Assembly (NCBI GenBank): GCA_950295325.1
Contig: OX485805.1
Coordinates: forward strand, 44,602,758-44,666,757
Reading direction: 5' to 3'
From: Polytrichum commune
Lineage: Eukaryota; Streptophyta; Polytrichopsida; Polytrichales; Polytrichaceae
Length of the DNA stretch: 64,000 nt
The translations under genes were made by a program, and so were the position numbers. This document shows, piece by piece, positions 1,143 to 27,891 of this stretch (its first letter is position 1; each line of letters opens with the position of its first letter). Under the pieces are notes generated by a model, which was given only the letters and a program-made list of their open reading frames with translations, was not told the DNA's origin and ran no database searches.

Positions 1143-1296
1143 GTAAGTTGTCCATACTCGATTTACAAACGCTCGTTCGTAAAATTAATCCCCTTCGCAA
1201 TGTAATGCTTCAAACTCGTTGCACGCCAACTTTACAAGTTTTGATGTTTACGAACGCACGTTCGTATTTTCTGACCTCATTGCTCTTGTGTCACAG

Positions 1297-4200
1297 ATGA
1301 TGGGGCTCGTCGTCAACACATATGTTGACACTGTTGTGAATCCTTTGAGTGGTCCACCACTCTGCGGGATCACTTTTAGTTAGAATGTTAGCATTAAAAG
1401 TTAGAATTGATAGGGAATTTAGGGAAAATTAGTTCATTTAGCATTTAGCCTAGAAGAAGGAAGGTCAAAATGAAACTAAGTAGTGCTAGAAGATAGCAAA
1501 GTAGAAAAAATATGCTAGCTAGTAAAAACAACTAGCTAAGCAAATATTAGTAGATGCTAGCTATTAAGCAAATGTTAGTAAATGCTAGCTAAGCAAGTGT
1601 TAGTTTATTAGTTAGTGTGAGGCACACAAGACTATTGGAGGTGTTTTACGTAAGAAGATAAAATCGGCGTGAAGAATTTTGAAGACAAAAAAGAAAGAGA
1701 GCAAGGGGGATACTTGTCCACTTGCCCCCTTGCCAACTCGATGGCGGAAAAATTAGAAAGATTTCTAAAGGTTTTTTGTCGGAGCCACCTCGGCGAGAGG
1801 GTGGCAACCTCAACCGGGAAAACCCCCGAGCCAAAATTTCGGGAAAGGGTTTGAAAAATAGATCCGGTGGAGGAGGGGTCCAACCCTTTTGTGAGAGGGT
1901 TTAAAAACCCCTCCTTCCACCTTGTAGCACTCTCTCTTTCTCTAGTTTTTGGGCGAAGCCCTGCTTCAATGTAGTTAGGAAAAAATCCTTTAGTATGCAT
2001 TTTCAATGGCCTAAAAGAAAGGCTTGAGAACCTCCTCTACTCTCTCTCCTAGTTAGAATGTGTGTTTATTAACACACCAACAAAATTATTCCTTCTTTTG
2101 TAGAGGTAGGTTGGATGGTAGAGTTTTGAGTAGAGGCATTATAGACCTCATCTGCCAATGCCCTGAAGGCTTAGTTCAAAAGCTAGAACAAGATACTTAT
2201 CATTTTTCTCTTAGAGAGATTTCATATAGCTATCCATAGCCGTTTCCCATTTGTGATTTGGTTGAGATGACAATTAGTTATGGATTTTCAAAGATGGAGT
2301 AGAAAAACTGGGTGGTCTTGTGGGTAGCGGCTGCTGGATCAGACCTGCGAGCCCAATAGGAATTTTAATTCCAAGAAATTATATTTTTCCCAAGTAGAAC
2401 TTTTGTGTAGCTTTCCAAAATGGCTTAGAACATTTGATTTGAGCATGATTTGAATCAGATATGAATTGTGCAAGATGGGACACATAGTTTGAGAACTTTT
2501 GGTTGACTGCTGCATTACAGAGGACCTGCTGGGTTCACTTCGGCTTACCTTTCTAATCACATATTTTTATCAAATACATCTTTTTAATATCTCTCCAGGG
2601 TCATATAGAACGTTTGATTTGACTAAGATTTGAATTAGATATGAATTGTTGAAGGCGAGATACATAGTTTAAGCCTTCTTGATTGACTGCTGTGTTACAA
2701 GGAGTCCGCTGAATTTCTATTAGCTTAACCTGCTGATGTCATAATTTTTCTAGTTAGAGCTTGTTCATAGCTTTCCAATGGTATAAGGAAAGCCTAGATC
2801 CAAGTAGTAAGGAATGTGCTATGAATTTTTGAAGTTAGAAGGTAGATAGGTGGGTTGGAAGGGTCGGTTGAATCGACCTCACACTTCCAACCCTCATAAC
2901 TTTTGCATTTCTTATCCGATTAGAGTGATTTTTAGATCATTGGAAAGATAATTTGGTGCACTAAGTATAAATATTATGCTTAGGATTAAATTACAGGGCA
3001 GAATAACACTTTATATTTTAATTGTTAACTAAGGTACGCTTACTACCACACTAGTTACAAAGAAGGAGGCAAGGTCGACGCTCGGAAAGTGGAGCAAGGA
3101 AGGAGGTAGCGGCTCGGCCTACATCAAGCCCAAATCAACCGAGGAAAATTGAGGTAAATTAACTAACCTTAAGCCTTCCATTTAGGATTGGAGGGAGCAC
3201 GGCTAAGGTACGCATTTCTAAACCCACTCACCTATCTCGTAAGGTCAAGTGGCTTGACCACTTGACCGCCAAGGGAGTACCCAATTCCATTGTTTTCGGG
3301 GCCCTTGGTATGTTTTGTGGTAGTAGCTTCATTTATTAGCAAGTTTCGTGTGTGGTAAGTCGGATTAATCACCGACACGACCACTCTGAATGTTGTTGGT
3401 GGAAAGGTGGGGTTAATGACCCGCGAATCCACTATTATGTTGTTGGCCCCATAGATTGGGAGTAATGGCCCCAATTTATGAAGATTGCGCAACAGGTTGA
3501 ACCTACAGGTCGCCCGTCACCCTGGTCCCATTGAGTTGCATTTCGTGGTCTATCCAGTGTAAACACATTTAACAATCAAAACATACAAAATAAATCGTAA
3601 ACCCTTGTTGGCAAGAGACCCGAGGTAAGGGGTGATGCCTAATATGTTAATGTAGTGAGTTAGGACGTGCAAACAAAAGTAAGTAATTAAGAAGGAATTT
3701 GTGTGAAGGGTGGGACTTAGGCCAAGTTCCCCCGCTTAGAAAACTAAATAGAACTAAATAAAGAAATAGGAAGAATTGAATGGTCCATCAAATTGTCGTT
3801 ATTCCGTTCGTTGAGTTAGGGTGGTATGAGTCACACCCGGTTGGGTGTATCAGAACCATCCCAATTCACAAATTAGGATTGCCTTGGTTTCAAGGCTGGT
3901 GCGTCTGCGCGTAGAATAGGTTGTAGGTTAAGGTTAGAACTAGATATGAAATTGGTTAGTGGAGTTTAAAGCCACACTAGTAAAAAACTAAGCCCTAACC
4001 TCCGGAGGTACTACGACGCATATTTAATCTCCCTTAAAAATCTAACTACTCACGTTATACACCTATCATCCGGGTTCGGCTTGGGCGCCTGCAAATGCAG
4101 GCCACCTTCACCGAAGGGCTTGTGTGATACTTTTAGGCTCCCTCAAAAGGGGGTGGCCCAAAAGTACCACAGCTGTCGACGAAGAAGATTTCCATATCCA

Positions 4201-5529
4201 CCGTGCAAAGGCGTCGATGATGGACCTGAGGGACATCTCTGTCCCGAGGACGGACTTCAATATGCCCGCCGACGAGGGCATACCAATCCACGATTCAGAG
4301 GACGACGAGCCCACCCCCTCCGCCAACCTGGACGCCATCGTCCGGTCCTTCGACATACACCCGCTTCGAATTTTGCCACCAACGACAAATCTTCCCGACC
4401 CTCAAGGGACCCCGGGTGGTTATACCGGTTCGTCAGCGGGCACAACCCAGGATGTCCTCCCCGCGAGAATGTCTTGTGCGGAGGCCTTCGGCATGCCAGA
4501 CAGATGTTCGACGTCACGGTCTCCCAGGCCCTCCGTGGTGCTGAAGATGGAGACCCTCGACCTCCTCGACCAACGCTCGCGTCCATCCTTGGACCACTTC
4601 CGCAATACGAGGAGGAGGATGAAGAAGACTCCCTACGTGGAGTTGCCGCCGGGAGCAATCATCGAGGTCTCCGACGAGGACGAGGGGGACATGGACATCA
4701 TGGCCGAGTTGGGGGTGGACTACGACAAGAACAAGCGGGTGAAGGAGGAGGCGCTGACCGTCGCCAAACTCGAGCAGAAGTTGAAGGAGGAAATGGCGGC
4801 AACCCAAGAGGAGAGCGCCAGGCATTTGGCCAAGATGTAGGGGGAGCTGAGGGCCTCCGTTGTGAAGACCAACGCCATCTTCGAGATGCTCAGGAGCATG
4901 CAGAGCTCCTCTGCGCCGGTCCAGCAGCCTTATCCCTTCCCCCCCGGAGGATACCCCTCACAGCCCCCCTGGCCAAGCATGTACCCAGGAGGACCTTCCC
5001 ACACACCAGCGCCACACCCAACGCCGGCGGGAAGTCCATTGCCCCCAGAGGTGATGGCAACCGCCTCAACCTCCCACGATGCTATCACGGCGGCACTATG
5101 GGAGGATGAAGATTTACGAACGGGCGTTCGTGAATCTTCAGGTCCGGTAGTCCTCACCCCTCCCCCTTCAAGGGTAGGATTGCCCTCAGACACGGACACG
5201 GCCTCTTTCACCATCGTCCCAAGGGTAGTAGATAGGCGGGGCGATGACACTGCGCAACACACTGACATGGTCATTGTGGAGGACACGCAGGGGAGCCCCA
5301 ATGACCCGGCAGGTGTCCAAGGGATGGACATGGAGAGCCCTGACCAGAACGACATCCCTCCGCGCACATGGAGGATGTCCGCATGGAGACACTCGACCTG
5401 GGCGGAGACGACGACGTGGAGCTCATCTAGCAGACCCAGACGTCTCAGGCGGAGCGTCCAGCGGAGGTCATGGAGGCAGAAGCGGCTGCCCCAATGGATA
5501 TTACGAACGCGCATTCGTTAATCAAAGAG
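1297..5529 (+). pseudogene. Linker exon of element A gene, split by a solo LTR
   Basis: The exon starts after TGTCACAG with ATGATGGGGCTC, matching the start of the element B linker exon (MSGLNIYSYIED). That continues the methyltransferase fold from motif I into a motif II-like acidic strand. Coding stops at 1334 where the LTR begins and resumes in the same frame at about 4172 (VDEEDFHIHRAKASMMDL) if the LTR and one copy of its target duplication are ignored. The rest is acidic, with a coiled coil (about 4720-4900) and a Pro-rich tail. In-frame TAG stops at 4838 and about 5414, plus a frameshift before the second, kill it. Both TAGs sit where CAG would be natural, the pattern expected from CHG-methylation decay. 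The donor is GAG|GTAACT at 5529. Confidence 0.6.
1335..4171. mobile_element. Solo LTR, 2.84 kb (copy 1)
   Basis: The element begins TGTGAATCC and ends AAAGTACCACA (TG...CA). It is flanked by ACTGT on the left and GCTGT on the right, an imperfect 5-bp target duplication. The same 2.84-kb sequence recurs at 55866-58704 with only scattered substitutions. It has no gag, pol or internal region, so a solo LTR is the simplest reading; a non-coding LARD-type element is the alternative. It sits inside the linker exon of element A. A short tandem run of TAGCTA/AAGCAA motifs lies at about 1510-1615. Small open frames inside it recur identically in copy 2 but have no recognisable product. Confidence 0.85.
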
Positions 5530-7408
5530 GTAACTCACTAACCCTGCGTTGTGTTCTTGGTGCTTCAACTCCAGCGACATCACGAGGCCCACGCGAGCCT
5601 TTTTCTACGTGATCCCTTAGCCGATCAATTTTGTAGGACACGGCATAGTTTGCCTTAGGAAACTGTGATAGATTATCACGCGAGACAATTGTAAATATTC
5701 AGCAAATTAATATATGAGCATATGATCTCTGCATCGCATCCCCCCAACTTATTGCATTGTGTTGTGTATGTTCATGCGCATCTTTGCACTCTTTGCATAC
5801 CCACCTCACTCACGAATGCTCGTTCGTAAAAGTGTGCGACCCCATGTCCATGTCGCGCACCTCTCCATGAGGAGTGCCCGAAACACCATGGGCACAAGGG
5901 GGACCCCGGAGTGACACCCGGGACTTGTGGCGCCATTGGTGAGAGGGCCCAAGTGATCCTAGTGTGGGTGAGGGCCCCGGGCGTTGGGAACGCCTCCCAC
6001 CCACGGAGACTAGGAGGCACAAGGGTAAGGCCATGAGATATGCGTAGCTCATGGCGTGGTGATTCTAGAATGCTCAAGAACACCTCAATCGGAGGTGTGA
6101 GCTAGGAGTTATGGCCATTTGAGTGGGGTGCTGTCCCGGGACAGCGCCCTGGTACAGCAGTGCCTGGGAGTGATTCCCGGGACTGCCAAGGTTCAAACAG
6201 GCATAACTTCCTCACCACTTGCCCGAATGGGGCAAGTGAGGAGTCCATCGGCATCTACGTGAAGCGTAGATGAGGATGGAGTGGTTGGTTGTTATGATCA
6301 GACATCATACAAGGAAGTTATGATGGTCTGAAGCTGTGGGGGGTTCTAGGCCCAGCGGCTAAGGGAAAATGTCCACTTGGCCCCAACTCTTGGTAGAGAG
6401 ACAAGAGGTTGGTTGATGGTGGGGTAGGGGCCCCGCATAGAGTCCTAGAGGCTTATATGGGTGAGGTGGTGTGGCCTCACCCACCCGAGGCCGAACGGCA
6501 CGGCCTCCATGGGCATTGGCCCATTGTGAGGCCATAGTTGCCTAGTATGGTTCGGGTTGTTGTAGTGTTGCTCCGGCAACACGATGATCAACATAGGATT
6601 GGACTTCCATGGATGGAAGTCCACATCAAAGAAATGGGTTACCGATTAAGGGGTGAGTCCCGAAAGCAAAGTAGGAGGGTTGGTTCCCCTTCTATGAACT
6701 ATGTGGTCCGGGGTAAGAGGAGCTAACCATTAGCATGGCGGTATGCGAAGGGTTAGCGCTCGTAACCTTTGCTAGAAAGGAAAATTGGCAAGATTATTAA
6801 GGGACCTAGCAAGGGTTGCGACAGTCCACCTCCTTCGCGAACGAGCGTTCGTATATGTGCGTGTATCCGCGCTCACACTCAGGGCGGGGGGGCAGTGTGT
6901 TAAAAAGTTAAGGATATAGGTGCGAACAACCACTATTTTATAGGGGGGTATTACTTTCAATTCTTTTCTTTTTTTCACATGCTATCATTATGTAAATTTC
7001 TACTTTGGGTTAATAGAAAAATGGCTTGCATTACTTATAATTCCAAATTATCTATTATTCCATACCCTATAGTACTTTAAAGATGCCCAATGCCATTTTT
7101 GATACCCTATATTACTCTTAAACCCAATTATAAATTTTGCTCCCATGTTTTTAAAATACCCTATCATTTGTTCGCACGTATATTGCTACTCCAACCAATG
7201 ACTACCCCCCCCCCGAGCGCTCGTAAATGATGCGCGCTACCACCCGCGGCCCTCATTCGCGAACGCATGTTCGCAAGTGTACCACTGAGCACATGCTCCT
7301 TGCACTCTTTTCCTCACTTCCTCGTCTTACCATAATGCATTGTCTTTTCCCTTAATGCAATCTTATTTATTGGATCATAGCATTAAACTAGCCAACTTGT
7401 AATCACAG
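5530..7408. other. Large intron of element A gene
   Basis: The stretch lies between the linker donor (5529) and the HAD acceptor (TAATCACAG, 7408). It contains four palindromes. A GC-rich block at about 5830-6830, between two of them, differs in composition from the AT-rich DNA that follows (6880-7190) and may be an old insertion. I see no coding potential. Confidence 0.4.
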
Positions 7409-7999
7409 GACCCCCCGGAGATAGATCGCAACCCCTCGGCGAATGGACCTCAGACCCGCCACAAGTCCTTCCTAGTTCTTGACCTCAACGGGGTGTTGTG
7501 TCACACCCAACACATCCCCAAGGTTCCCACCCGTCCCTTCCGCGACCTCCCGAGCCCATGCCTCGTCCTTGGCCAAGAGGCGTGCGACGAGCTCGTCGAC
7601 GAGAAGGGGTTTCCGTTGCCAAAGTTTGGCGGTCGAGGCGGGGGACAACAGTTCCTCAAGGTCCTCCGGTCCAAGTTGTGGCAAGGTGTCCCCCTGCTCG
7701 AGGGGGTCCCCCACGGACACTGGCCAACGTTGGAGACCACCCTCCTCATCGACGACAACCCAACCAAGAGCGTCCTCAACCCCCCGGGCAACGTCATCTT
7801 CCCCGACACGTGGACCGGCGATAGGAAAGACATTTTTTGGGTCAATAGGCTAGCACCCTATCTTAGAAGGCTTGTGCTCCACCCCGGGAGCATCCCCGAT
7901 TTTGTTAGGTCCATCCCCATCGGCAAGGCCGCGCTTAGTCCTCGCGACAATGTATATAAGAGCATCGTGCAACTCGCGAAATTCAATAAATTGATATGA
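7409..7999 (+). pseudogene. FCP1-like HAD phosphatase exon of element A, internally deleted
   Basis: After the acceptor the frame runs without stops to TGA at 7997-7999. It holds FLVLDLNGVL (HAD motif I, with Asn where a catalytic general acid/base Asp is usual), a later PCLVLGQEACDEL block and LLIDDNPTKSVLNP (the DD motif), and it ends LAKFNKLI. All align with element B (16153-16968). About 60 residues present in B between VPTVPF and PCLVLG are missing, including the YLRPWLRRFL and WSSM segments that carry motif II in FCP1-like proteins. The deletion keeps the frame, but without that segment phosphatase activity is unlikely. The 5' exons of this copy are also broken. Confidence 0.65.
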
Positions 8000-8106
8000 A
8001 TTGCCACCATGTATTTGTTGTTTCCATGTGGTTCATATTTCTAATGCCTTCTCCTTTTTTGGATGTATTTTTGTTGTGTTTGTTGTGTTGTTGTTGTTGC
8101 CGACAG

Positions 8107-9058
8107 TCTGCCCCCCCATGCAACGCCCCTCTACTCGACGGCCCTTCCAGTCCCCACTCGGCCCTTGCCTCCCCCTCCCGCAACGCGACGGACTTTCAAG
8201 TGCCATCCCTCTACCAGTTCTCGGCGGTGGACGTGGCCTCGGCCGTGGATTACTCCTGTGACGTCGGGATCGAAGACGGCGTCGTCAACAGCCCTCCCCC
8301 CAAACTTCACACGTGCGCACGCACGCCCTGTCGCCCTATCGCCCTCTCCCCTCTCCAAGGAGAAACGAACGCTCGTTCGGTTGGCACATTCGTCGCCCTC
8401 GAGGGATGACGGCGTTGCTCGTCGCGGGCCGAGCCGGCGTCTCCGCATGGAAGCCCCCCCGTGCAACGCCTCCCCCACCGTCTCCGCTCCTCCCCCCGCA
8501 AACTCCTCCCAGGTCGTTCGCCCTCCTTGCATTGACCCCCCCGTCAACGTCCCCAAAGCCAAGGTGCATCTTCTTTAGCCCTAACCCCTTTTCCGCCGTG
8601 TCTTTCCTTGTCTCGCATGTGCGTGCCGCGATGTTTACGAGCGCCCATCCCAAACTGCCCTCGTTTCCCCCATTGCATTCCCGCTCTTGTTTTACTCCTA
8701 CTAAAATGGTCTTCTTTCGCAGGTGGCTACTCGCTCGATGGGTGCCCGGCCCTCCTCGACAATGTCCTTGGATAGGCATGCCCTCAAGGTCACGTCGTCC
8801 GAGTCCGATCGTTGTTTGGCCCTCCGGTGAAGCGCAAGACAATCCCTCTCCCAAACGCACTCGTATTCCACTCACAATACAACTTCGTACAATTCGGGAG
8901 CGCGTCCGGATAATATTATATGGAGGAACGACACATATTCCGGGCCCGTCAACAAAAATGGTTACAGCCGTGCGTCGGAGATTTTCAGAGCCATGGAGGC
9001 TGCCAAAAACAAGGACGCGGCCGCGAAAAAAAATAGTGGGACGGACTCCCTAAACTAG
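8107..9058 (+). pseudogene. C-terminal exon pair of element A
   Basis: The first exon (8107-8563, after CCGACAG) encodes a Pro/Ser-rich stretch with VASAVDYS and GVVNSPPP, shared with elements B and C; its donor is AAG|GTGCAT. The second exon (8723-9058, after TTTCGCAG) encodes a tail with NTTSYNSG and SEIFRAMEAAKNK, also shared. A frameshift near 8330 in the first exon and an in-frame TGA at 8828 (CGA to TGA, CpG decay) in the second make it a pseudogene. How these exons join the upstream HAD exon, which has a conserved stop, is unclear. They may be a separate small gene. Confidence 0.55.
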
Positions 9059-9409
9059 AAATAGGTTTAGTGCTATAACATATTAGTGATAACTTTCTAT
9101 TTTATTTCTAGTTCTCCAAGACATTGATGGTATTTCCATTATATTTGTATTTATTCCCATTGAAGTAATTCAATTTCCATTCATTATCCGTATCTTCCCT
9201 TCCATTGAGGTCGATTTCTCATTTCATACGCAAATATTTTCATGTATGCTTGACATTTTCTTTCAATTCGATGCCTTTATGTCTTGTAATTGTTTCCAAA
9301 CCTATACATATGTGAGTTTTAGTTCGTAATTACTGGTCCATATTTGGAAAGTGCGTCCTTAAATAGTCTCAAAATCAACTAAAAGTCTCTAATTAATGAA
9401 TATAGTGTT

Positions 9410-15231: not shown

Positions 15232-16033
15232 CTATCTAGCCTCGGAGACTACCTCTTTTTCTTTTGCTTCATTTTCTTTTGCTTTTTTTTCTTTTTTTTC
15301 TTTTTCTTTTGCTACGGCTTCTTTTGCTCGCATTGCTTCAACATTCCTGAAAATCTCCGCCCCGCGACTATAGCCATTCTTGGGGTGACCGCCATCAATA
15401 ACACATTTTGGATTCCGTCGGCCGCCCGAATTATACGACGAAGAATTCGAATACGATGAAGTGGACTGTCTTGCATTTCTGGTCATGGAGTAGAAACGCT
15501 CCAACTCGACGGACGCACTAGCCCGCATAGGTCTACGGGTGGGAGCAACCTGCAACGCGTGAATGCAAGAACACACGTGTTAGTTTAGGGAGGAAGACCC
15601 AAACGTGTCACACGTTCATTTTTTAAGTGCCGGATGATTGTAATGCGCGGTTAACCATGTTTTGGGGGGGGGGGTTCACCTTGTCACCGGGGGCGTTCCC
15701 GTCGGAGTCGGCGAGGAGGGGCAATGCGTCCCGCAAAGGAATAGGAAGGGTGCCACTCTTCGTAGGCCGAGCGTCCATCCGCAGCCGCCGTTGAGGTGTA
15801 CTACTGCCGCCGGGCCGAGAGGGGGACGTCCGGACGCATTTGCGATTTATGCCCTTGAGCGGCGACGGGGACGGAGATCGCCGGAAGATTTGCTTGGGTG
15901 GGGGGCTATCGACGACGCCGGCGTCAAGAGGCTCCTTGGAGTAGTCGATGGTGGATGCGGCATCGTAGACGGTCTCGTAGAAGAAGCTCCCCAAGTTTTA
16001 TTCGCTGACGATCTCAATCGAGGGCTCCAAACG
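15232..16033 (-). CDS. C-terminal exon pair of element B (acidic/Lys-rich tail protein)
   Basis: The first exon (16033-15680) follows TTTTGCCATCAG and ends AAG|GTGAAC. It encodes YDAASTIDYSKE and GVVDSPPPK, conserved with elements A and C. The second exon (15549-15232) follows GCGTTGCAG and encodes a Ser/Tyr-rich segment, GYSRGAEIFRNVEAM, and a long Lys/Glu/Ala helix, probably a charged coiled coil, before its stop. Both exons are phase 0. In the continuous phase-0 frame the first exon has a TAA near its start (about 15998), so either the real start is internal (MGSFF at 15994) or this copy is damaged. It lies about 120 bp downstream of the HAD stop on the same strand. Function is unknown. 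Confidence 0.5.
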
Positions 16034-16152
16034 CTGATGGCAAAATTAAAACAAACAAAACCCAAGGGGAGGGGGGCAGGGGGGGAGCATGAGAAAATCG
16101 ATATACAATTGAGGCATACTATATCACACACAATGGCACACCATGTAGTATC

Positions 16153-16968
16153 TCAAATGAGTTTATTATATTTCGCGTGAGCGTACAACTCTCTGTACAT
16201 ATAGTCCTTCGGATCCATGTATCTTTCGCCTATCGGATTACAACTAAGGAACCGGGGCACGGGTAGTCCGCTCCCCACGAGCGTTTGAATGTACTTAAGT
16301 AGGTCTAACAAAAAGCGGTCTCGGACCTTCTCGACCGTCCACGTGGGGCAAACGATGAAGTTGGAGGTCGGGTTCAAAATGTTTTTGGAAGCGATGTCGT
16401 CCACCATCAACGTGTTGTCACGGGTGGGGCGAACGTCGTAGGGACAGCCGACCATGGTCGGACGCTGGTCCCATACGACTGGCTTCAAGACCTTAAGAAA
16501 TTGGTTTACGGCGGGGTTGTTGGGCTTCTTCACAACCCTGCCCTTGGGGGTGTACAATGTTTTACAAGAATCATGTCCTAGGACCAAGCACGGGGGTTGG
16601 AGTCCCTTGAAGATGAACTCCACGACGGCCTGGATATTCTCGGACTTCATGGAGCTCCAAATGATCACCCACCATTTGGATAGGGCGACCTGTAGGAAGC
16701 GCCGAAGCCACGGGCGGAGGTACACTAGCTTGTTTTTGATGTACGCGGGGGGGGGTCCATCGTAGTTGGCGTCCTCGGGCTTGCAGAAAGGCACCGTTGG
16801 GACCCTCGGACAATGCACGCACTGGACAAGGACCCCGTTGAGGTCTAGCACCAGGAACCGGGTCTTGGGAGGCGAAGGTGGCGAGGGCAAAATCGGGGGG
16901 ACCACCGCGCTGTCCTCCACACTCCTCGGAGAGGATCGGTGGGGAGCCGCGACGCTATGCTCCGAACC
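16153..16968 (-). CDS. Exon 4: FCP1-like HAD phosphatase domain
   Basis: The frame runs 272 codons from the acceptor CGCCGCAG to TGA at 16153. It contains FLVLDLNGVL (HAD motif I), KLVYLRPWLRRFLQ and VIIWSSM (the FCP1/SCP motif II region) and LMVDDIASKNILNP (motif III, DD). It ends YAHAKYNKLI. In FCP1/SCP phosphatases motif I is DxDxT; here the second Asp is Asn and Thr is Val. The same DxNG form occurs in a plant clade of CTD-phosphatase-like HAD proteins. The first Asp (nucleophile) is kept, so binding or weak activity is possible. The conserved stop in all three element copies shows this C-terminus was maintained. Confidence 0.7.
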   Translation of the reverse strand, partial: GSEHSVAAPHRSSPRSVEDSAVVPPILPSPPSPPKTRFLVLDLNGVLVQCVHCPRVPTVPFCKPEDANYDGPPPAYIKNKLVYLRPWLRRFLQVALSKWWVIIWSSMKSENIQAVVEFIFKGLQPPCLVLGHDSCKTLYTPKGRVVKKPNNPAVNQFLKVLKPVVWDQRPTMVGCPYDVRPTRDNTLMVDDIASKNILNPTSNFIVCPTWTVEKVRDRFLLDLLKYIQTLVGSGLPVPRFLSCNPIGERYMDPKDYMYRELYAHAKYNKLI

Positions 16969-19900
16969 CTGCGGCGACGAGCGAGAGAAGGCGGCGAGGA
17001 CTATGTTATGCTATGTCCATCTCAAGCAGAACGGAAATTTTGTGCAAACACAAGAAGAATTGGACCATTGGTGGCAACAAAAACATACAAGGGAACAACA
17101 TACATTGGGACACGGATGCAAACATATGGGCGCCAAAAATAATAATTTTATTTTTACAAATCTCTATGTACAATTTGATTCGGGGGGGGGGGGGGGGGGG
17201 CGCGGTGAACGAGGGCATTCACACTATCCTAATTCTACATCTACAAAATTGGTTGCGCGCCGCCAAGGTCGAGCGTAGTCGAATGCAGGTGAGACGAAGG
17301 GGATCGCGGGGGGGCACGTTGGGGGGAGGGGGAGCAAGTGTAGACCAGGGGGGGCAGGGGGTGTGCATTTCCTCCTAGCATGGGGGACACGACCACGCCA
17401 ACAAGACAATGACCCAGGAAGTTTGGGTCGGTCGACCCAAACTGGGAGGGCTCAGTGTATTACCTCGCCCTGGTCATGTCTCGACGATGTGGAAGCCTCC
17501 ACCGTCCCCGCTGCCCCGCCTCTCTCGCCACCGCCTTCTCCGACGACGTCAGGAACCTTCTCCTGCAAACGATCGGCATCAGGCCCTTGTCCTAAACCAA
17601 TCTCCGCATGTGCATCATGCATGGGTTCATCGATTTGGTTAGGAGTAGAGGTATCACCAGGCCCTTGCAGGCCTTCAACATCTAGCATGGCCGTGTCTAG
17701 TTGACACCCATGTTGGTCAAGGGAGGACTGCGCTGCAACGGGGTTTGGGTCGCCCGACCCAAACTGTCCTGCATCTGGAGAGGGCCCTTCGGACACTACA
17801 GTGGATGGTGGGTTTGGGTCGGTCGACCCAAACATCCTGGGGTCGTCCGATTGGTGGGGTGGCGCCATGACTATGGGGGGCCGAAGTGGTGGAGGGCCCA
17901 AAGGGGAGGAGGCTCCAGAGACGCGCCAGATGTTGGAGTCATCCACTTGCTGGACCGGCGCGTACGGAACTTGGTGGGGCTGCATCAAGTGCTGGAAGCT
18001 GAAAGACGATTGCGGCACAGGCTGCTGAGGGATGCTCTGCGGATGGAAGCCGGGGGGCAAGTGCGGGAAGGAGCTGGAAGGAGCCACCACCAAACCTTGC
18101 GCCCACATTCCTTGTATCACTTGTGATATCAAGTCGGCGTGAGACGGAGGTTGGGCCATCGCCCTTTGACGCTCCTGCTCCAACAGGAGAGCCCTCAGCT
18201 CTGCGACCTCGTTCCGCATTGAGGGTTCTTCTGCGGCAGCCTTCTGCAGGCGGACTCGCTGCTCCTTGTCCCTCCTCATCTTCTCGTTCGCCTCCTCCAC
18301 AGTCAGGACCTCGGGCTTCACCCTAACCATGCCAGCGAACGCTGTCGGGGACGGGGGATCTGATCTTAGCCGTTTGGCGAGCTCAATGTCATCGTCGTCC
18401 TCACTACTTATGGCAATGGTCTCCTCCACGGAGTAGTCGCCATACAGCTTCTTCCCCTTTAACTTCCTCCTCTCCTTGAACGTCGCGGTGGCGTCCCTGG
18501 AGTACATGTCCCGTGCATCGTCCACAGTCAGGACGGGCACGAGCTTACTCTGCGGGGTTGCCGCCCGCATCGCCTTCTTCCGTTGAGGGGCTTCGGATTC
18601 TTGCGTGAAGCCCGTTGCCCCTTCCTCGACGTCGCCTTCTTCTCCGCCTCCTCGTGTTCCTCTTCTTCCTCCTCCTCCTCCTCAACCTCGCCACCTTCTG
18701 TGCGGGACGGATTGCCCGGATGCAACCCGACCAGAGGTTCGGGAACTTGGGTCGTGGCCCTCATGGCCATTTCCTCCGGGTTGATGCGCCTCACCCTATC
18801 AAGAGGGTTTTCGCCACCCTGAACAACCTCGTCGACGTAGCTACCCGGGATCCAATCGAGGATGTCCATCTTCTTCGCCAGCGATTTCTGCACCCTGTAA
18901 AATGGCAGATCGCCATCCTCTATGTAGGAGTATATATTCAGCCCCGACATCTACACAATCCAAGTTATAGGGAAATTAGAATTTGTCGAGGCAATCACAT
19001 AAACAAGACTAAATACAATGTGTAGTTTGGGTCGGTCGACCCAAACCTGCAAAGAGCCTAGTTTGGGTCGGTCGACCCAAACCTGCTTACGAGCTATAGA
19101 AAGTCACTTACCATAGCAGCATAGACAGGTTTTGAGCCTCCGAAGACGTTGAAGATGCAGTCCCCTCTCCTCGTCAGCGTCCTCATCATTCTCATGTAAA
19201 ATTCCATCCGCAGCTCATCTGCAGGATAGTTCGCGTATTTAGCCTCGTCGTAGAGGCACTTGTTCGCACCCAACCCTTCTGGAACTTGGAAGAGTTTGTC
19301 CATCCGGGATATAGGGTGGTTTGGCACCTTCAGCAACTTCGCTTTGTACACGAAGTACAAACACAAGACGTTGACGAACTTGGTCTTCTTGTCCTTCAAC
19401 GTCGTGTAAGCCCCCTCCGCCGGTGCGGCGATGTAGTGAGACTTGGACACTGCATACTCCGGCTGCAGTTTCCGGACAAGCTCGTACACCTGCTCCGCCC
19501 TTCTATCCTCGACTATCCAAAGCCAGATATCTACCTCCCTGAACTTAGGGCTTGCATAATCGACGAACTTAGTTAAGAAGGGGTCGTAGAAAAGGGTGCT
19601 CATCGTGCCCTCAAATGAGCTTCCAGGAATATTTCTACAATCAATCATCCCAAAAGGAAAGCGGTCCTTTGCTTTCGTCCTTATCGCCATTCTGGCGTCT
19701 TGACCTGGCCAGCCCTGAATTTTCAAAGGCTCGAAGGTGACAAGGTTGAAGTAGGCGTCCCCTTCAAACTGGACAATCTTCTTCTCCTTGATGAAGTTCG
19801 AGAACGCACGCGCTGTGTGATCCGGAAGCGCCCGGTTCTTCCCACCTTTCACCATCTTGGCCCGCAAGAAGTCGTCCCCCGCTTCCCTTATTAGAGCCGC

Positions 19901-22035
19901 CATGGAGGCACTGGTGAACTTATATTCATCTTTGAATGCTCTCCAGTTAGCCCCATGAACCTCGCCGTCTACGACAATATTCCTCTCTGGCACCAATTTA
20001 TGCAGCTCCTGCACGATAGTCGTCTTCTTTTTCCTGTTATCCGTCCATTCCTTCATGGTGTAGCATGAAGGAACGAAGGATTTGGGCTTTTGGAAGACAA
20101 TCTTCGGGTGCACCCAACACCTCTTCGCCGTGGGTGCCACGTGCAGGATGTGAGATGCCGCCTTCTCCACCTCCGTCTCTGACAGCCCTTGAAGAGTTCT
20201 AAAGAACTCTCTCACGAGAGGCTTCATCTGCTTGAAGCGCGAGGTTTGGCTGAAGAAAATGCCAGTGTCGGGGTCGATCAAATCCCCCGTCTCGTGCTTT
20301 TCAAACACGGTTTTCCACTTCCTCCAAACTGAGTCCGATGCTGTAATCAAGTAAATTACCCTTGAGGTCGCTGTATTTCTTCTGCTTGTGGCTCGAATTA
20401 TCAATGGAGGAGAATTTGTTGATCATTTGGTATTTGAAATTCTGCACGTGAACAAAACAGAACATTTGAATGCGTGTTAGTTAAGTACATGTGATTTCCA
20501 AACCATATCATGACCAACATCTACAACAAGAGTTTGGGTCGGTCGACCCAAACTGAAAAAAAACACAAGACTGCAACAGTTGTTTGGGTCGATCGACCCA
20601 AACTAAAAAAACACAAGACTGCAACAGTTGTTTGGGTCGATCGACCCAAACTAAAAAAAACACAAGACTGCACCAGGAGTTTGGGTCGGTCGACCCAAAC
20701 AATACTCACCTCCCACTTGGGATTCTTGTCCTTCGCATTCTCCCTCTCCTTGGGAGGCCTACCATAGAACTCCCACACCTCCCGCGAGGCCATGATATTC
20801 CTTATCCAGGAAGCTTGGTAGGCCCTCTTCTTGTTTCCCATATTGAAGTACCGGGAGATGTCGCTGAGCTTGGTCTCGTCGTCAGACCACACCACCAGTG
20901 CCTTCCAAACCTTCAGCTTTTCCTTCTGATTGTTGGGATCGTCCCACTCATTCATGAGTTGGATTTTCTTGGATGCCTCCACGCTGTGTTGGCCGTCCAT
21001 CAGCCAAAAATCGCCCTTCTGAATTGTTGGCCACATTTCAGGTGTAGGCATTTTCTTGAGACCCTGTGGCATCACTACAATCGTTTGCCTGTCGTCTTTA
21101 AACTGCTCGCAAACGATCTGCGCGATTATCCAGTCAACGTAGGCGTCCTCCTTTGCCCGGACACACTTCTCCGGTGGCGCTAGATGGCACTGGCTGATGT
21201 TCACGTCGAACTTGAAATCCCTGCCCATGAAAAAACAGTGGGAGCATTTCGTCGTGAAATTGTTCACGATTTTCTGCAGCTCCCCTGCATCCACCTCTTC
21301 GCCGGGCTTCGGCATGCGCAACTCCGGTGAGACTGGCTCGTCAGTCATCACAGATGACTCTCTCGCCCTCTTGGATGGAGTTGTTTGACGGCTCCCAGAA
21401 GGTGTAGGGGTCTCACTATTCGTAGGTGTTTGGGAGGGAGTGGTCCTACGCGAGTCAGCCGGTACTGGAAGCGGCATCCTCACCGATTGAGGTCTTGACG
21501 ACCCTGCTCCTTCCTCTGTGGGAGCTTTCCGCCTCACAGGTTGCTGTGATTTGGTTTTGCTTTGCAGGCCCCTGTTCAGCACGGTTATTGCATGTTTTAG
21601 TTTTGTGAACCGGCTTGAGACCTTGGTATTCGATGTACTCCCATCGATAAATATTGTCTCCGGCTTGATAACTTCCGGTTCGACACAGGACTCTCTTGCA
21701 TAGAGTGCGTCGAAAGGCTCGGAGAACTGGTGCATGAACATATGCGCGTTCTGCACAGCCGAGTTCTCGAGGATGACGTCGGTATAGTCTCCAAGAGACT
21801 GTACCGATGCGACCTCCCATCCCGTAAGAGTCGCCCAGGTGTGTTTCTCCACGGTTCCCACCTTGACAACAAAAATCATTTTGTATGTTGAGGCTTTGAC
21901 TACTTGAATAGACCAAGCGAGGACAAGCCCGTCCTTAGGGGAATAGGAGTCATCCTGCGGGGTTTCGTGCTCCTGCCACAACATGTCCGGCGCAGGCATG
22001 AACCACCTTTCGCCGGGTCTTTTCTTTGGAGCCAT
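16153..22035 (-). CDS. ParB-like / methyltransferase-like / coiled-coil / HAD fusion gene of element B
   Basis: Four exons, 22035-20710, 20441-19112, 18950-17464 and 16968-16153, are bounded by GT-AG introns whose junctions all fall between codons (GAG|AAT, ATG|ATG, GAG|GGT). They read as one gene of about 1,650 codons. Domain order is N-terminal Ser/Pro-rich region, ParB/DGQH-like domain, permuted N6/N4-methyltransferase-like domain crossing the second intron, acidic linker with coiled coil, and FCP1-like HAD domain. Exon 2 carries one extra base (shift near 20350) and exon 3 lacks one base (shift between about 18640 and 18570). As given, the gene is therefore interrupted twice by single-base indels. 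All three introns contain TTTGGGTCG-type palindromes. Separate genes are possible but the phase-0 continuity argues for one. Confidence 0.6.
17464..18950 (-). CDS. Exon 3: motif II strand, acidic linker and coiled coil
   Basis: The first 40 residues (MSGLNIYSYIEDGDLPFYRV...) complete the methyltransferase-like fold. A Glu-rich run and a Lys/Arg cluster follow. After the frame change (between about 18640 and 18570) come IAISSEDDDDIELAKRLR (resembles an acidic SUMO-interaction-like patch), a heptad-rich helix (VEEANEKMRRDKEQRVRLQKA, through LRALLLEQERQRAM) and a long Pro/Gln-rich tail. Two palindromes (17743-17764, 17812-17833) are read in frame as FGSGDPNP and FGSTDPNP, so they are tolerated in the protein. 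The donor is GAG|GTAATA. Confidence 0.45.
19112..20441 (-). CDS. Exon 2: permuted N6/N4-methyltransferase-like domain
   Basis: The order of elements fits a beta-class (circularly permuted) DNA methyltransferase. A motif IV-like strand and loop FPFGMIDCRNIPG lies near 19640; a helix plus strand VDIWLWIVED follows; then a strand FVNVLCLYF, an ELRMEFYMRMM helix, and GDCIFNVFGGSKPVYAAM (19160-19112), which resembles motif I (VLDPFAGSGTTLLAA). The next exon supplies GLNIYSYIED, matching the motif II strand with its acidic end. The catalytic DPPY/NPPY/SPPW of motif IV is replaced by CRNIPG (FRGIPG in element A), so this may be a catalytically altered or dead domain. A one-base insertion shifts the frame near 20350. 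Confidence 0.5.
20710..22035 (-). CDS. Exon 1: ParB/DGQH-like domain
   Basis: The exon encodes 442 residues from an ATG that directly follows a TTCTCTTACAG acceptor-like sequence, so an untranslated first exon may lie upstream. Residues 1-135 are a globular region rich in W, V and F. Residues 140-245 are a Ser/Thr/Pro-rich linker with basic patches. Residues 270-440 resemble a ParB N-terminal (ParB/sulfiredoxin) domain: IVVMPQGLKKM, then GDFWLMDGQHSVEASKKI at 341-358 (compare DGxHRxxA), LKVWKALVVWSDDE, and an RYFNMGNKK segment where ParB proteins have the N of ENLQR. The Arg of the family motif is replaced by SV. The exon ends KNPKWE|GTGAGT. A CTP-switch or nuclease role cannot be judged from this. 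Confidence 0.5.
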
Positions 22036-22061
22036 CTGTAAGAGAATAATGCGCAAAGTTA

Positions 22062-22498
22062 GTTTCGGTCGTTCGACCCAAACATCTACGACATGAATAG
22101 GTTTAGGTGGATTGTGTATTTATATATTTCAGCATCATTTGTAATGATAATAAGAATGTTGTGATTATTGGGTGGATTTGCATTTTATATTGTTTGTGAC
22201 ATGCAGGATTCCTTGATACTTTTCCTTCATGCATTCCTTGATTATTATTTTGGGTTGATGTGAATTTTATATTGATGCAAAAATCATGGATTTCTTTATG
22301 AGTTTATAATTAGAAGACTTAGTTTGGGTCGTTCGACCCAAACATGATGATTTGTGTTATATTTGGGTCGTTCGGCCCAAACATGATGCTTTGTTTTGTG
22401 TTTGGGTCGAGCGACCCAAACAAGGGGCTGTGTTTGGGGCTGTGTTTGGGTCGGTCGACCCAAACAAGAGGCTGTGTTTGGGTCGTCTCCCCAAACAG
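22062..22498. promoter_or_regulatory. Palindrome cluster upstream of the ParB exon
   Basis: Six copies, some imperfect, lie just 5' of the minus-strand gene: 22062 (TTTCGGTCGTTCGACCCAAA), 22322, 22361 (GTTCGGCCC core), 22400 (GAGCGACCC core), 22444 (perfect) and 22477 (GTCTCCCC core). Their arms are conserved and their cores vary. The position fits a regulatory cluster of an autoregulated gene, but there is no direct evidence for promoter function. Confidence 0.55.
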
Positions 22499-22740
22499 TA
22501 TTATTTTAATGTATTTTTTAAACTTGGCATCTAGCATATGCAATGCTTATGCATTGTGTAATATGCTACAAAACCGTGAATATACAAACACATATTGGTT
22601 AAAATAAAACACAATACCTTTCAAAGATGTTGTGCAGACAATTTGGAGTAGAGCAGGTTGTTCTTCCAATAATTCTCAATATCAAACAAACTGTGAGAAA
22701 GTTCAATGAGAAACTTTCAAACAAGTATCAACTCTCTCAA

Positions 22741-23050
22741 ATAGCTCTTGGATCTCTCAACCAACTCCTGAATCTCACACAGAACTACTGAATCTCTCAA
22801 AAGACTTCGAAATGTCTAAACCAACTCCTGAATCTCACACACAACTACTAAACCTCTCAAAAGCCTTCGAAATGTCCAAACCAACTCCTGAATCTCACAC
22901 ACAACTACTAAACCTCTCAAAAGACTTCGAAATGTCTAAACCCACTCCTGAATCCCTCACAAAACTACTGAATCTCTCAAACGACTTCGAAAACTCTCAA
23001 ACAACTCTTGATACTCTTAAAGAACTCTTGAATTTCACAAGCACTCCTAA
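22741..23050. repeat. 60-bp tandem repeat
   Basis: About five units with an exact 60-bp period (CAACTCCTGAATCTCACACA, then ACTACTGAATCTCTCAAAAG and CTTCGAAATGTC). Divergence rises at both edges. The open frame across it (MSKPTPESHTQLLNLSK repeated) reflects a period divisible by three. It lies in the intergenic region of element B. Confidence 0.75.
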
Positions 23051-24164
23051 AACTTCCAGTACAAACACCTGGACCTCCCAAACCGAAGCTTTATCTACTA
23101 CCGAATGTTCTACTAACTTCCTTCAGCACTTTCCAATACTCTTCAACACTCTTTTGCTAACTTCCTTCACTCTCACGCTCTAAAACCTTCCTCCGTATGT
23201 TTCTGTTTCTTTCAAAACTCTTCCTAACTTCTAAGATTGCACAAGGGCTATTCTATTGAAGAGCAAAAGAAAGGAGGGAAAAGAAGATGCAAAAGAAAGC
23301 AATGAACGCGGGAGAACGAAGGGTTAACCTACACCAAGCCTGATTCGCCGCGGCGCTTTGCGAAAGCGGCGCTTCCAAGCGAGGCGCGGAGAGAGAGAGA
23401 GAGAGAAAGAAATGAGAAATGCGACGGTTGGGGTTTTGTTTACCTCGGGCATTGGCCCCCAACCGCATGAATAGGGTGCCCACAGGATTAGGGCACCCAC
23501 GGAAACAGGGTTACAGGGAACCCTAAAACCTAAATCATAACGCTTGACTCTAAACCCTTAGCGGGCCTACCTCTTTAAGAGTACATAGGCTATTTGCCTC
23601 ATAGCATAGGTTGCATTCTACAATATCAACTTTTTGTAAGTTGAAAACCTTTTGAGTTTGTAAGTTCCTCGCCAATTGCCTCAAAACTAAATTTTAGTAG
23701 GCTAAAATCCTTCATATCTTTTAATGTTGTAGGTTTTAAAATCAAAATTTGAGTACTAAGTGGGATCCTTGGCAGGAATTGAACCAGGCTAAGCCTTTCA
23801 CCACGTTTGAAGGCCAAGGATTAACCAAGTCTTTTTTAAAGAGTTGATTATAAGTTTTGAAAGGTTGCTAAAATTCAAATGAGTTTAAGGGTGAAAGTTC
23901 TCACCATGTTCTCATTCAACCTCTACTCTTCCTGCAAGATATAGCCTAAAGATATGTACTTAGGCCAACTAATTTCCCAATTTGAAGAAGGATGAATGGC
24001 TAAAATCCTTTCTTTTAAAAAAAATTTAGGCAAAATTTCCTAAATGTTTTTATCACATAGGTTGATATCCTATGTTTTTAAATTGTCCATAGGCTCTTTG
24101 TCCTACACTTTCAAAATTTTATAGGCTAAGTCACTAATTTTGTAGGCTGCATTTGTTTTAATCG

Positions 24165-24411
24165 GTATATTCGTTAATTTGGGATTTTTTCGGCATTTTG
24201 AGAAAGTTACAAATATAAGAACATGGATAAAATCGCACGTACATTGGAGAATGTTGTAAGATGCAAATACTTTGAAGCGGGTGTTCATATCAAGAACGCA
24301 ATTAAGATCTCATATGAAGATGGTTTAGGTAGGACGACCCAAACATTACACTATGTTGTTGTGGTCCATATATTAATTTGAGAGAAGAGAAAATCTCAAA
24401 TTAGCGAATTT
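24165..24411. mobile_element. Small non-autonomous derivative of the B-type element
   Basis: It begins TATATTCGTTAATTTGGGA and continues with about 170 bp similar to the left end of element B (14700-14870, including CTTTGAAGCGGGTGTT). It ends with CATATATTAATTTGAGAGAAGAGAAAATCTC, like the right end of B (31615-31655). At about 250 bp, with both ends and no genes, it is a MITE-like deletion derivative nested inside a full-length relative. The outermost terminal bases are eroded. Confidence 0.6.
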
Positions 24412-25148
24412 TAGGGTTTAGGTTCTTTTGGACCTTGCTCTAAACCCTTATTAGTTTTTTCAAAAGAACTATGGAGTACCCTAAGGTGCTACATAAAATG
24501 TGTTATTCTACAAAACTAACCATTTATATAGCCAGCGCATTCTTACAACAAAACTTTATGCTAAACTAATACTTATCCCCTACTTACATGACACCATACC
24601 CTAAATTTTCCAAAATCATTGAAGGCATTGGTTTCTCTTTTGTTTGAGCATGTTAGAAAATTTAAACCATATAATTGCGTTATATTTAACAATGTAATCA
24701 TTCACATTTAGTCCTTACCAATGATGCCAACAATTCACACGATATTGAATGAAAAAAAAAAGATTACCCACACCCCCCAACATGTGGAACAATTTAGAAT
24801 AATTGAGTGTGGAGCCTAATAAATGAATACCTTCCCCAACTGCATTTTGCAAGGGTTTTGAAATGCACGATCCTTATTTGAAAATGCGAACATGCTCAAG
24901 TTTTAAGTACATCCCTTAGATCGTGACTTTCACGAATCACATAGTCGCCAATAAATCATGGTTCATGATTTATTTAATATATAGATTGTGATATAAGAGT
25001 AAATGGGATAAGCACAACATCAAATGAAGCCATTCAAGCAATCATGTTGTTATTCCCTGTTCCTTCCATGTATATTAGATGATGGCGCAAGATAAAATAG
25101 ATGTTGTTTGTATATGGGGGCATCAGTGAACCACAACTACATTTGGTG

Positions 25149-25920
25149 TTTAGGGTTTAGGGTTTAGGAGATAGGAGATAGGGTTATAACATATTAATCT
25201 ATCCAATGTCAATGTATAACATTGTCTTACTCGTGAGAAGAGTCTTATAGGAAGGTTATAGTGAAGACGATGTTGATTATGTTAATTTGTTATTCGAGAC
25301 GTTTAAACGCGATATATTGATTGGTCGTGTGTTTATTCAAATAACATGAAATATTGTGGATGTTAATAGGGGCTAGGGGTCCAACTTTGGATGTTTCGCT
25401 CACTTTAGGGAATCACATATTAGTCGCTAATAAACCATCGTTCATGATGTATTTAATATATGGAATGTCATGTAAAAGTAAATCGGAGAAGCACAACATC
25501 ATGTTGTTATTCATTGTTCTCTCCACGTGTATTAGATAATGGAGGAAGATATAACAGATATTGTTTGCATAATATGAAGAAGAGTCTAATCGGAAGGTCA
25601 TAGTAAATACAATCTTGATCATGTTAATATGTTATATGGGACGTTTAAACATGATATCCTAATTGGTTTTGTATTTAGTCAATGCGTATTTCATGTTGTG
25701 GATGTTATAAGGGTTTAGGGTCCAATCTTGGATGTTTTGCTCTCACACATTAGTAAACTTGAAGTGAACTTGAGGATGGATTCAAGTAACATTAAAAGAT
25801 TGAACTAGAAAGGGACATTGGTAGTTAGTATCCCCTTAACAACGTCCACATACGTTCGTCATTGCCACTCTTGCATGCGAGATAATAGAGCAAGGTTCTA
25901 GGGTTTAGGGTTTAGGGGGG
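25149..25920. repeat. Short TTTAGGG telomere-like tracts
   Basis: Three plant-type telomere units occur at 25149-25168 and nearly three at 25899-25920. TTAGGGTTT also recurs in every unit of the palindrome array at 26657-27891. The tracts are too short to be true telomere remnants. Confidence 0.5.
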
Positions 25921-26656
25921 ACAAATAAATAATTCTATTCATCATGACAATGGCCTCAAGCCTTGGAAACTCTCTCATAATTGCAGCCTCCAAATGGCCC
26001 AAACCCCACCTAAATAGGTTTACACTTGAAAGCATTGAATGGAGTTGTGTTTGGGTCTACATATTGGTTAAAATATACCTTGATGATACTTGAAAAAATT
26101 AATGTGGCCGCCACCCTTCCTCCCAATGGCGTATGTCATATCCACACAAAACAAAACAAATAGATTAAATAACATAGACTAAGTCATATGACGGCTGGGG
26201 TATCAGAGGGGCATTGATAGATGCGCATTTTTCTACTATAAACAGAAAACGGGGAATTATGTCAGGAGGTTTGAAATAACCTCTGCAAGAGAAGAAGGCG
26301 GGGAAGGCATCCAATGACTAAGTCTGGGAAGCGGAGGTGGATAGTATAAAGGGGCGCACCCCCCAAAAGTCGGTCCTTTTTTTCTCTTCTCCCGCTGTCG
26401 AATTCGTAGAGAGAACTCTTAGTAGGAGCTGTACTTCAAGGTTCGTGCATGCTGCCATTCATGAGCACTTATCCATAGCATGCAAGTTCATGAGCACCTA
26501 TCCACACCATGCAAGCCCACCGTGAACTTTGCAATGAGCTCAAATTCAACACACCACGCAATATCCGCCCCATTATACGCCGGATTTTGTGGTGTACTTG
26601 GGCGAACCTTCACCTTTACACTAGTGTTGGCGGGTCTTGAGTCTGACCCTATGAGG

Positions 26657-27891
26657 TTTGGGTCGACCGACCCAAACCTGTCCACTAGTGTGTTAGGGTT
26701 TATGTCTGACCCTTGTAAGGTTTGGGTCGGTCGACCCAAACCCCTACCCCAGTGTCTTAGGGTTTTTTTCCTGACCCTTATCAGGTTTGGGTCGACCGAC
26801 CCAAACCACTACATGGTGTGGGTGGATGTACTCTTGTGAGGTTTGGGTCGGTCGACCCAAACCCCTACCCCCAGTGTGTTAGGGTTTTTTCCTGACCCTT
26901 ATCAGGTTTGGGTCGACCGACCCAAACCCCTACGTGGTGTGGGTGGATGTACCCTTGTGAGGTTTGGGTCGGTCGACCCAAACCCCTATTTCAGTGTGTT
27001 AGGGTTTTTTTCTGACCCTTGTCAGGTTTGGGTCGACCGACCCAAACCACTACCTGGTGTGGGTGGATGCACCCTTGTGAGGTTTGGGTCGGTCGACCCA
27101 AACCCCTACCCCCAGTGTGTTAGGGTTTTTTCCTGACCCTTATCAGGTTTGGGTCGACCGACCCAAACCCCTACGTGGTGTGGGTGGATGTACCCTTGTG
27201 AGGTTTGGGTCGGTCGACCCAAACCCCTATTTCAGTGTGTTAGGGTTTTTTTCTGACCCTTGTCAGGTTTGGGTCGACCGACCCAAACCACTACCTGGTG
27301 TGGGTGGATGCACCCTTGTGAGGTTTGGGTCGGTCGACCCAAACCCCTACCCCCAGTGTGTTAGGGTTTTTTCCTGACCCTTATCAGGTTTGGGTCGACC
27401 GACCCAAACCCCTACGTGGTGTGGGTGGATGTACCCTTGTGAGGTTTGGGTCGGTCGACCCAAACCCCTATTTCAGTGTGTTAGGGTTTTTTTCTGACCC
27501 TTGTCAGGTTTGGGTCGACCGACCCAAACCACTACCTGGTGTGGGTGGATGCACCCTTGTGAGGTTTGGGTCGGTCGACCCAAACCCCTACCCGAGTGTG
27601 TTAGGGTTTTTTCCTGACCCTTATCAAGTTTGGGTCGACCGACCCAAACCCCTACCTGGTGTGGGTGGATGTACCCTTGTGAGGTTTGGGTCGGTCGACC
27701 CAAACCCCTACCCCAGTGTGTTAGGGTTTTTTTTTCTGACCCTTGTCAGGTTTGGGTCGACCGACCCAAACCCCTACCTAGTGTGGGTGGATGCACCCTT
27801 GTGAGGTTTGGGTCGGTCGACCCAAACCCCTACCCCAGTGTGTTAGGGGTTCAGTCCGACCTTTATGAGGTTTGGGCCGGTCGACCCAAAC
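26657..27891. repeat. Palindrome array with 241-bp higher-order repeat
   Basis: Twenty-one copies of the 22-bp B-type quasi-palindrome lie at alternating distances of about 57 and 63 bp. Successive copies alternate in orientation: core TCGACCGA, then its complement TCGGTCGA. A four-palindrome block repeats with an exact 241-bp period (26843, 27084, 27325), with almost no change over about 720 bp, so it was amplified recently. Spacers carry TTAGGGTTTTTTCCTGACCCTT and GTGTGGGTGGATG. The array ends about 180 bp before the transposase-like coding start, so it may act as enhancer, silencer or protein-loading site. The long open frames across it are by-products of the repeat. Confidence 0.9.

Follow-up and report, generated by a model that had tools for sequence, protein, structure and literature searches.

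The stretch of Polytrichum commune DNA analysed here (the window: 64,000 nucleotides, C3:44602758-44666757 of a 407.8-Mb genome in 64 contigs, of which C1-C7 measure 42 to 78 Mb) harbors a DNA transposon, element B, together with a decayed copy of a related element, A, and a fragment, C, of the same type as A. Each lineage of these elements carries its own short palindrome at many dispersed places, and the palindromes are best explained, with a probability of about two in three, as candidate binding sites of the element's own protein that mark its family, the most likely reader being a ParB-like and methyltransferase (MTase)-like product. Direct observation covers the sites themselves, their confinement in the sampled copies, their shared positions, their symmetric lineage-specific change, the conservation of their half-sites and the element boundaries.

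The palindrome of element B, GTTTGGGTCGNNCGACCCAAAC, has two 7-base half-sites with two free bases between them and a CGNNCG core. It occurs 32 times exactly in the window, always within B (17421 to 27806), and four more times with one or two mismatches (22062, 22361, 24323 and 27870). The sites occupy introns, one exon, upstream sequence and a tandem array of an approximately 120-bp unit, which bears out the sequence-only reading, where more than 30 sites at such places had been claimed. In none of 20 first-order Markov simulations of the window did any palindrome with a 2-base spacer and 7-base arms appear more than once, as against the 32 copies observed. The features of element B, with the exon limits of its gene read by eye, are as follows.

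14691..31665: element B, DNA transposon of 16,975 bp bounded by terminal inverted repeats (TIRs) and a flanking direct repeat
14691..14718, plus strand: TIR on the gene side, AACACTATATTCGTTAAATTGAGACTTT, a perfect 28-bp inverted repeat
14854..15064: subterminal degenerate palindromes 14854, 14943 and 15043, with a counterpart near the other end at 31453
15235..15994, minus strand: last open reading frame (ORF) or exons, limits by eye, with degenerate palindrome 15583 in an intron; homologues in A-I elements
16153..16968, minus strand: FCP1/NIF-phosphatase-like exon (PF03031, E 5.1e-13)
17464..18950, minus strand: exon 3, limits by eye; its coding sequence contains two exact palindromes (17743, 17812)
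18951..19111, minus strand: intron 2, with two exact palindromes (19025, 19061)
19112..20441, minus strand: exon 2, a helical region and a beta-class DNA-MTase-like fold, the fold predicted on the relative P0121
20442..20709, minus strand: intron 1, with four exact palindromes (20532, 20582, 20630, 20679)
20710..22035, minus strand: exon 1 (ORF1), an N-terminal PH-like region and a predicted ParB-N-like fold (model residues 272-403, box DGQHS)
22062..22497: 5' cluster of sites ahead of ORF1, with exact palindromes 22322, 22400 and 22444 and degenerate ones at 22062 and 22361
26642..27893: tandem array, 10.3 copies of the unit of about 120 bp, two palindromes per unit
27921..31134, plus strand: DUF7869 gene, in two ORFs (27921-29564 and 29902-31134; PF25273, E 5.1e-36, on ORF 29902-31134 only)
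31638..31665, minus strand: TIR on the DUF7869 side, a perfect 28-bp inverted repeat of AACACTATATTCGTTAAATTGAGACTTT

The ParB-like multi-exon gene occupies the minus strand between 22035 and about 15235, its exon 2 reading frame being broken once near 20360 in the window copy, and is transcribed divergently from the DUF7869 gene, which encodes a putative transposase and in whose scanned ORFs DUF7869 was the only family found. The array holds 20 exact palindromes (26656-27806) and the one-mismatch site at 27870, and a further exact palindrome at 17421 lies just beyond the exon 3 donor. The element is flanked by the 4-bp direct repeat ATGA (14687-14690 and 31666-31669), and in both of the elements seen with both ends (B and C1:639070-648560) AACACTATATTCG ends are accompanied by a 4-bp target-site duplication (TSD). 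CACTA/En-Spm transposons have a 3-bp TSD, CACTA at the very end and a TNP2-type transposase domain; membership in that group was not adopted for B, given its 4-bp TSD, its AACACTATATTCG ends and DUF7869. The degenerate subterminal sites (14854, 14943, 15043 and 31453), about 160-370 bp from the B ends, are unlike the internal code, those on the gene side being of the GTTTAGGTAG.GG.CAATCCAAAC type, and are perhaps a second, transposase-read class of site.

A different palindrome, ACGAACGNNCGTTCGT, is found in element A and in the other members of its subfamily, A-I, of which the following copies were used.

1..9409, plus strand: element A (A-I subfamily), decayed, with A sites at 1165, 1250, 5116, 5503, 5812, 6837, 7259 and 8365
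58945..60465, minus strand: element C, only the 3' part of an A-I-type element, with 93% identity to a copy on C1
C1, from about 2231388 (left end AACAATATATTCG) to about 2246924: A1; homology stops there, the right end not being seen
Within C1:2452001-2472000: A2
Within C1:2262001-2292000: A3, with nested insertions

Two of the sites in A are exact (1250 and 5116), five have one mismatch (1165, 5503, 5812, 6837 and 8365) and one has three (7259); those at 1165 and 1250 lie within intron 2. Neither an ORF1 match nor an array was found for A in the window and the 10 kb to its left. The claim that A and C carry their palindrome at places comparable to those of B was overstated for C, since this 3' fragment has a single degenerate site (60033, one mismatch). 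No exact A palindrome occurs in B and no exact B palindrome in A or C within the window, and the earlier statement that neither palindrome is seen in the other subfamily also stands in the sampled B and A-I copies.

For B, a search with its ORF1 protein gave 1163 candidates, of which 95 were scored (92-100% identical); in 30 of these loci, 4.3 kb long and including B itself (L020), the B palindrome occurs exactly 4-9 times per locus and the A palindrome is absent. A further 32 B copies, covering different groups, were sampled by small intron-1 windows (20 picked from the scored matches, 12 from another listing), and the B palindrome is present, and exact A-I and A-II palindromes absent, in 32 of 32. 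Hence all 62 sampled B-type stretches, one of them B itself, have the B palindrome, and 0 of 62 the A palindrome. Conversely, 5 of 5 A-I stretches contain ACGAACGNNCGTTCGT and 0 of 5 the B palindrome. A genome-wide count, one part of the scan that the sequence-only reading had called for, gave 5602 exact occurrences of the A-I palindrome vs 4 for the reversed control; all of the 100 sites placed, the first 100 of the 5602 (C1:640,647-2,466,125), lie in five stretches holding element genes or ends. For the A-II subfamily, a search with protein P0087 yielded 1198 candidates (87 scored, at 62-67%), from which 20 intron-2 windows of 551-591 bases were chosen, the copies being assigned to A-II by percent identity without a tree. 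A third palindrome, ACGGACGNNCGTCCGT, was present in 15 of these windows, and exact A-I or B palindromes were absent from all 20. Together, these counts show the genome to contain at least three codes, and hybrid sites combine the two A codes. In viral_contigs, neither the B palindrome nor a match to the ORF1 profile turned up. The intron-1 palindromes of the B copies often recur at a spacing of about 57 bp, with 1-6 per window and a varying copy number (L052-L058, L070-L081).

The A-I elements on C1 share the layout of the ParB-like gene with element B. Relative to the ORF1 start, both B and A1 have an array far upstream and a cluster of sites within about 440 bp; in both, intron 1 has at least two sites and intron 2 has two, and others follow in the late exon and shortly after it. 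As the ORF1 proteins of B and A-I elements are only about 35% identical, the sites have kept their places while their sequence changed. In an alignment of A1 and A2 covering 20 sites, 258 of 280 half-site bases are identical, compared with 28 of 40 spacer bases and 601 of 1080 bases (56%) in 27-bp flanks, and 16 of the sites keep all 14 half-site bases. At the eight sites in the well-aligned part of the gene (13096 to 16577), the figures are 110/112 for half-sites and 288/432 for flanks, the background between A1 and A2 being 2211/2613 (85%) in the non-coding sequence of the gene part and 3563/4440 (80%) in exons.

Further lineages became accessible because database ORFs run past exon ends into introns, so that palindromes can be read in the translated tails of the proteins (VWVDRPK, FGSIDPN or LGRSTQT in B; YERSFV, LRTxVR or FTNARS in A-I). 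Back-translation recovers the B signature from B-type proteins in 15 of 39 cases for ORF1 and 13 of 44 for exon 2, and from none of the 76 A-type proteins; the A-I signature is present in 23 of these 76 and in none of the 83 B-type proteins. The counts leave out P0118 and P0119, and many of the proteins end too soon for judging; the LRTxVR tail is also compatible with other half-sites, 17 of the 76 A-type proteins fitting ACGGACG. These codes were mapped on a tree of 69 rows (67 from 122 exon-2 proteins plus two study loci; quick search, supports from the Shimodaira-Hasegawa-like approximate likelihood ratio test only), in which the A/B split and A-I each have a support of 100. TTCGGTCG is confined to one clade of two (support 99), TTCGGGCG to one clade of three, two of them readable (support 100), ACGGACG and ACGGCCG-type sites occur in A-II clades (supports 99 and 98), and a TTGGGCCG-like site occurs in P0141 alone. 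A site of P0112 can be read as an old half joined to a new one, and P0115 combines two sites of the new type with one readable as old-type. That both halves of a palindrome change together fits a symmetric dimer. The lineages of P0141 and P0022 carry other palindromes, which are known from translated tails only, as their best own-genome matches among those scored reach 70% and 73%. Two distant relatives, P0118 and P0119 (29-31% identity; contigs of 1.18 Mb and 105 kb), are possibly from another plant or algal lineage.

Predicted models give the product of the ParB-like gene a ParB-N-like fold beside a beta-class MTase-like fold, hence ParB-like and N4/N6-type DNA methyltransferase domains would both be present at the fold level. 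The MTase-like fold of exon 2 was recovered only by VIA-align among Foldseek's 1000 best chains, and the ParB-like box, placed by eye, reads DGQHS in 9 of 10 rows and DGQYS in the tenth.

That a protein encoded by the element reads the palindromes is very probable, and that this reader is the ParB-like protein rather than the DUF7869 product is nearly as probable. According to the proposed mechanism, the ParB-like/MTase-like product would bind as a dimer, two half-sites being contacted across two free bases, and would load in the introns as well as at the 5' cluster and the array farther upstream. The loaded protein would mark its own element family, which would stay expressible or mobilisable (anti-silencing, autoregulation), and lineages with a changed half-site would lose cross-recognition of each other. 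The distribution of the codes accordingly reads as a suggestion that each lineage's protein recognises its own copies only. The view that the main effect of such reading is on anti-silencing or expression is tentative, at somewhat under even odds. The observed/expected ratio of CpG is 0.79 in B and 0.90 in A1, vs 0.49 in the window at 32-54 kb and 0.60 in the 9 kb to the left of the window; the higher values are compatible with reduced methylation, as well as with youth. The earlier suggestion of co-evolution between protein and sites is partly supported: the confinement, the shared positions and the symmetric change are observed, and a ParB-like reader, dimer binding and anti-silencing are inferred.

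Several observations weigh against this interpretation. The specificity of the palindromes for subfamilies is not absolute: of the five A-II introns (of 20) that lack ACGGACGNNCGTCCGT, ACGGCCG/CGTCCGT hybrids are the only sites in four, and the fifth has an ACGGCCG-type site that is nearly perfect; A-I/A-II hybrid sites occur in 6 of 20 A-II introns and 3 of 5 A-I segments. The placed A-I sites are only 100 of 5602, and the sampled B copies are close relatives rather than independent draws. Between A1 and A2, 4 of 20 sites are altered in their half-sites, two slightly and two being lost; moreover, the alignment may be anchored by the sites themselves, and the flanks adjacent to the sites (56%) fall below the general background (85%), so that the contrast with the flanks overstates the conservation of the half-sites. 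The elevated CpG may reflect only youth or coding content. On the protein side, the mean predicted local distance difference test (pLDDT) scores of the ParB-like and MTase-like models are 66 and 81, the best ParB match in Foldseek, at 7.6e-03, missed the E<=0.001 threshold, searches with Pfam and PDB sequence profiles turned up no homology to ParB or to MTases, and no DNA-reading domain was identified in the element protein. An intact catalytic motif IV of an N4/N6-type methyltransferase is of the DPPW/DPPY type; the MTase-like domain has DFRxIPG at that place (by eye), and the ParB-like box, likewise placed by eye, appears to be without the P-motif arginine, hence neither nucleotide binding nor catalysis can be assumed.

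The main rival is that the palindromes serve transposition, the DUF7869 product or the ParB-like protein binding them as an accessory that assembles a transpososome, much as TnpA binds subterminal repeats in CACTA elements. This is unlikely, though it does have observations in its favour. At C1:639070-648560 (L010, L011) both ends, the TSD CATA on both flanks and 33 exact A sites are preserved, whereas only FCP1-exon fragments of the gene were found in the searches made, so that this deletion derivative is a non-autonomous copy retaining the palindromes; the degenerate palindromes close to both B ends would likewise suit a transposase. However, exact palindromes are absent from the 2.7 kb next to each B end, and the introns, exon and array that contain the sites are kilobases away from the ends. 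We favour self-recognition, serving expression or anti-silencing, over a role in transposition. Much less probable are pre-mRNA hairpins, in splicing control or as a small-RNA source: a site does start about 10 nt past the splice donor in most of the 32 intron-1 windows and could fold into a 9-10-bp stem, but 20 of the 32 exact B sites are in the upstream array, the central two bases are variable, and degenerate sites keep the half-site letters and not the pairing (7 of 10 pairs at 14943). Transposon sequences can recruit host factors, yet a host DNA-binding factor as the reader is just as improbable as the hairpins, since three palindromes occupy the same places in one genome, each in one subfamily among the sampled copies, and further palindromes follow protein clades, which would require several host factors tracking transposon lineages. 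Neutral tandem repeats hitchhiking with each lineage, which the repeated intron-1 sites and array with their variable copy number might suggest, are the least likely, given that lone sites in different locations (introns 1 and 2, the late exon, the 3' part) share the lineage half-site and that half-sites at eight well-aligned sites are 110/112 identical vs 85% for non-coding sequence in general.

Binding of the element's own copies by its own product has a proposed precedent in Sola1-1_Ec32 of Ectocarpus, an algal transposon with a ParB-methyltransferase accessory gene, whose product is suggested by the authors to bind and modify its own transposon (PMC12477816, citing Iyer 2011 and Petroll 2025 as references 50 and 51); this report slightly raises the odds given above for the ParB-like reader. 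As described there, the algal system has in common with the moss elements a large DNA transposon with a second gene opposite the transposase and with ParB-like and N4/N6-type methyltransferase domains, and differs from them in that here the element has DUF7869, AACACTA ends, a 4-bp TSD and an added FCP1-like exon, the domains are too diverged for detection by sequence, and the palindromes are lineage-specific; the main text of the report contains neither 'palindrom' nor 'DUF7869'. In Arabidopsis, expression of VANC removes DNA methylation from its own VANDAL family (PMC5735166). From that account, the common points are a factor encoded by the transposon, motifs that are specific to a subfamily and lie upstream, within introns and elsewhere in the non-coding sequence of its own transposon, tandem arrays, and related lineages with different motifs, the location upstream, in introns of the own gene and in arrays being a match. 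In contrast, VANC motifs are short and directional (YAGTATTAY), VANC has DUF1985/DUF287 and VANDALs are Mutator-like elements (PMC5735166), whereas palindromic half-sites, ParB- and MTase-like folds and sites also in an exon are found here, and DUF1985/DUF287 were not among the Pfam families listed at E<=1 (23 A1, 25 A2 members). By analogy, the moss elements are VANC/VANDAL-like in kind but not members, with other domains, another transposon type and palindromic sites.

The survey of ParB proteins in PMC12704722, in whose main text 'transpos', 'plant' and 'moss' are absent, covers ParB/Noc/KorB-parS systems and phage ParB-MTase fusions, which have in common with the moss gene palindromic sites and the pairing of a ParB-N-like fold with a beta-class MTase-like one; unlike them, the moss gene belongs to a nuclear transposon and contains introns, appears to lack the arginine of the P-motif and resembles them at the fold level only. 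Epigenetic-type enzymes are also borne by fungal DNA transposons with TET/JBP genes (PMC12730594) and by retrotransposons with DNMT genes (PMC5890265), but the enzyme classes are others and lineage-specific palindromes are not mentioned in the text available from these sources. Among the literature matches listed, with the primary Iyer 2011 and Petroll 2025 outside that scope, no report was found of lineage-specific palindromes tied to such genes; on this literature, ParB-methyltransferase accessory genes of transposons are already known (PMC12477816) and the lineage-specific palindromic code would be new. Among transposons, VANDALs are the best-known case of recognition codes specific to a lineage; for the self-binding proposed for algal ParB-methyltransferase products, no sites could be found in the literature listed. 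Here, candidate sites are now visible for at least three codes in one genome and for more in relatives, with thousands of sites for one code and with hybrids, so that the joint change of a DNA-binding protein and dozens of dispersed sites becomes directly testable; the palindromic codes could also serve as orthogonal DNA addresses. A wider generalisation, which we hold as possible with slightly less confidence than the anti-silencing effect itself, is that ParB-methyltransferase accessory proteins of transposons form a system of self/non-self recognition with an evolving code, in which a ParB-like clamp or mark-writer on parS-like palindromes over its own copies would protect or switch on its own lineage only, new lineages arising by concerted symmetric change of dozens of sites through hybrids.

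Of the four A-I stretches examined by tblastn, A1 and A3 have DUF7869 homologues (60-66% identity) in the corresponding divergent position, and no match was obtained in A2 or the deletion derivative. Between A and B, an ORF with DUF4218 (12154-12729, E 1e-38) is a fragment of another transposon, and directly past the right end of B there is a copia-like gag_pre-integrs/integrase ORF (31718-32605). A nearly identical insertion of about 2.8 kb (98-100% in reported repeats) is present in A (about 1334-4130) and near C (55865-58750), and a repeat of about 974 bp in A (5851-6823) is 93-96% identical to C1 copies, several of which lie inside the nested A-I element at C1:2262001-2292000. A 35/141-bp tandem repeat at 62014-62582 is located near the DUF7869-side fragment beside C.

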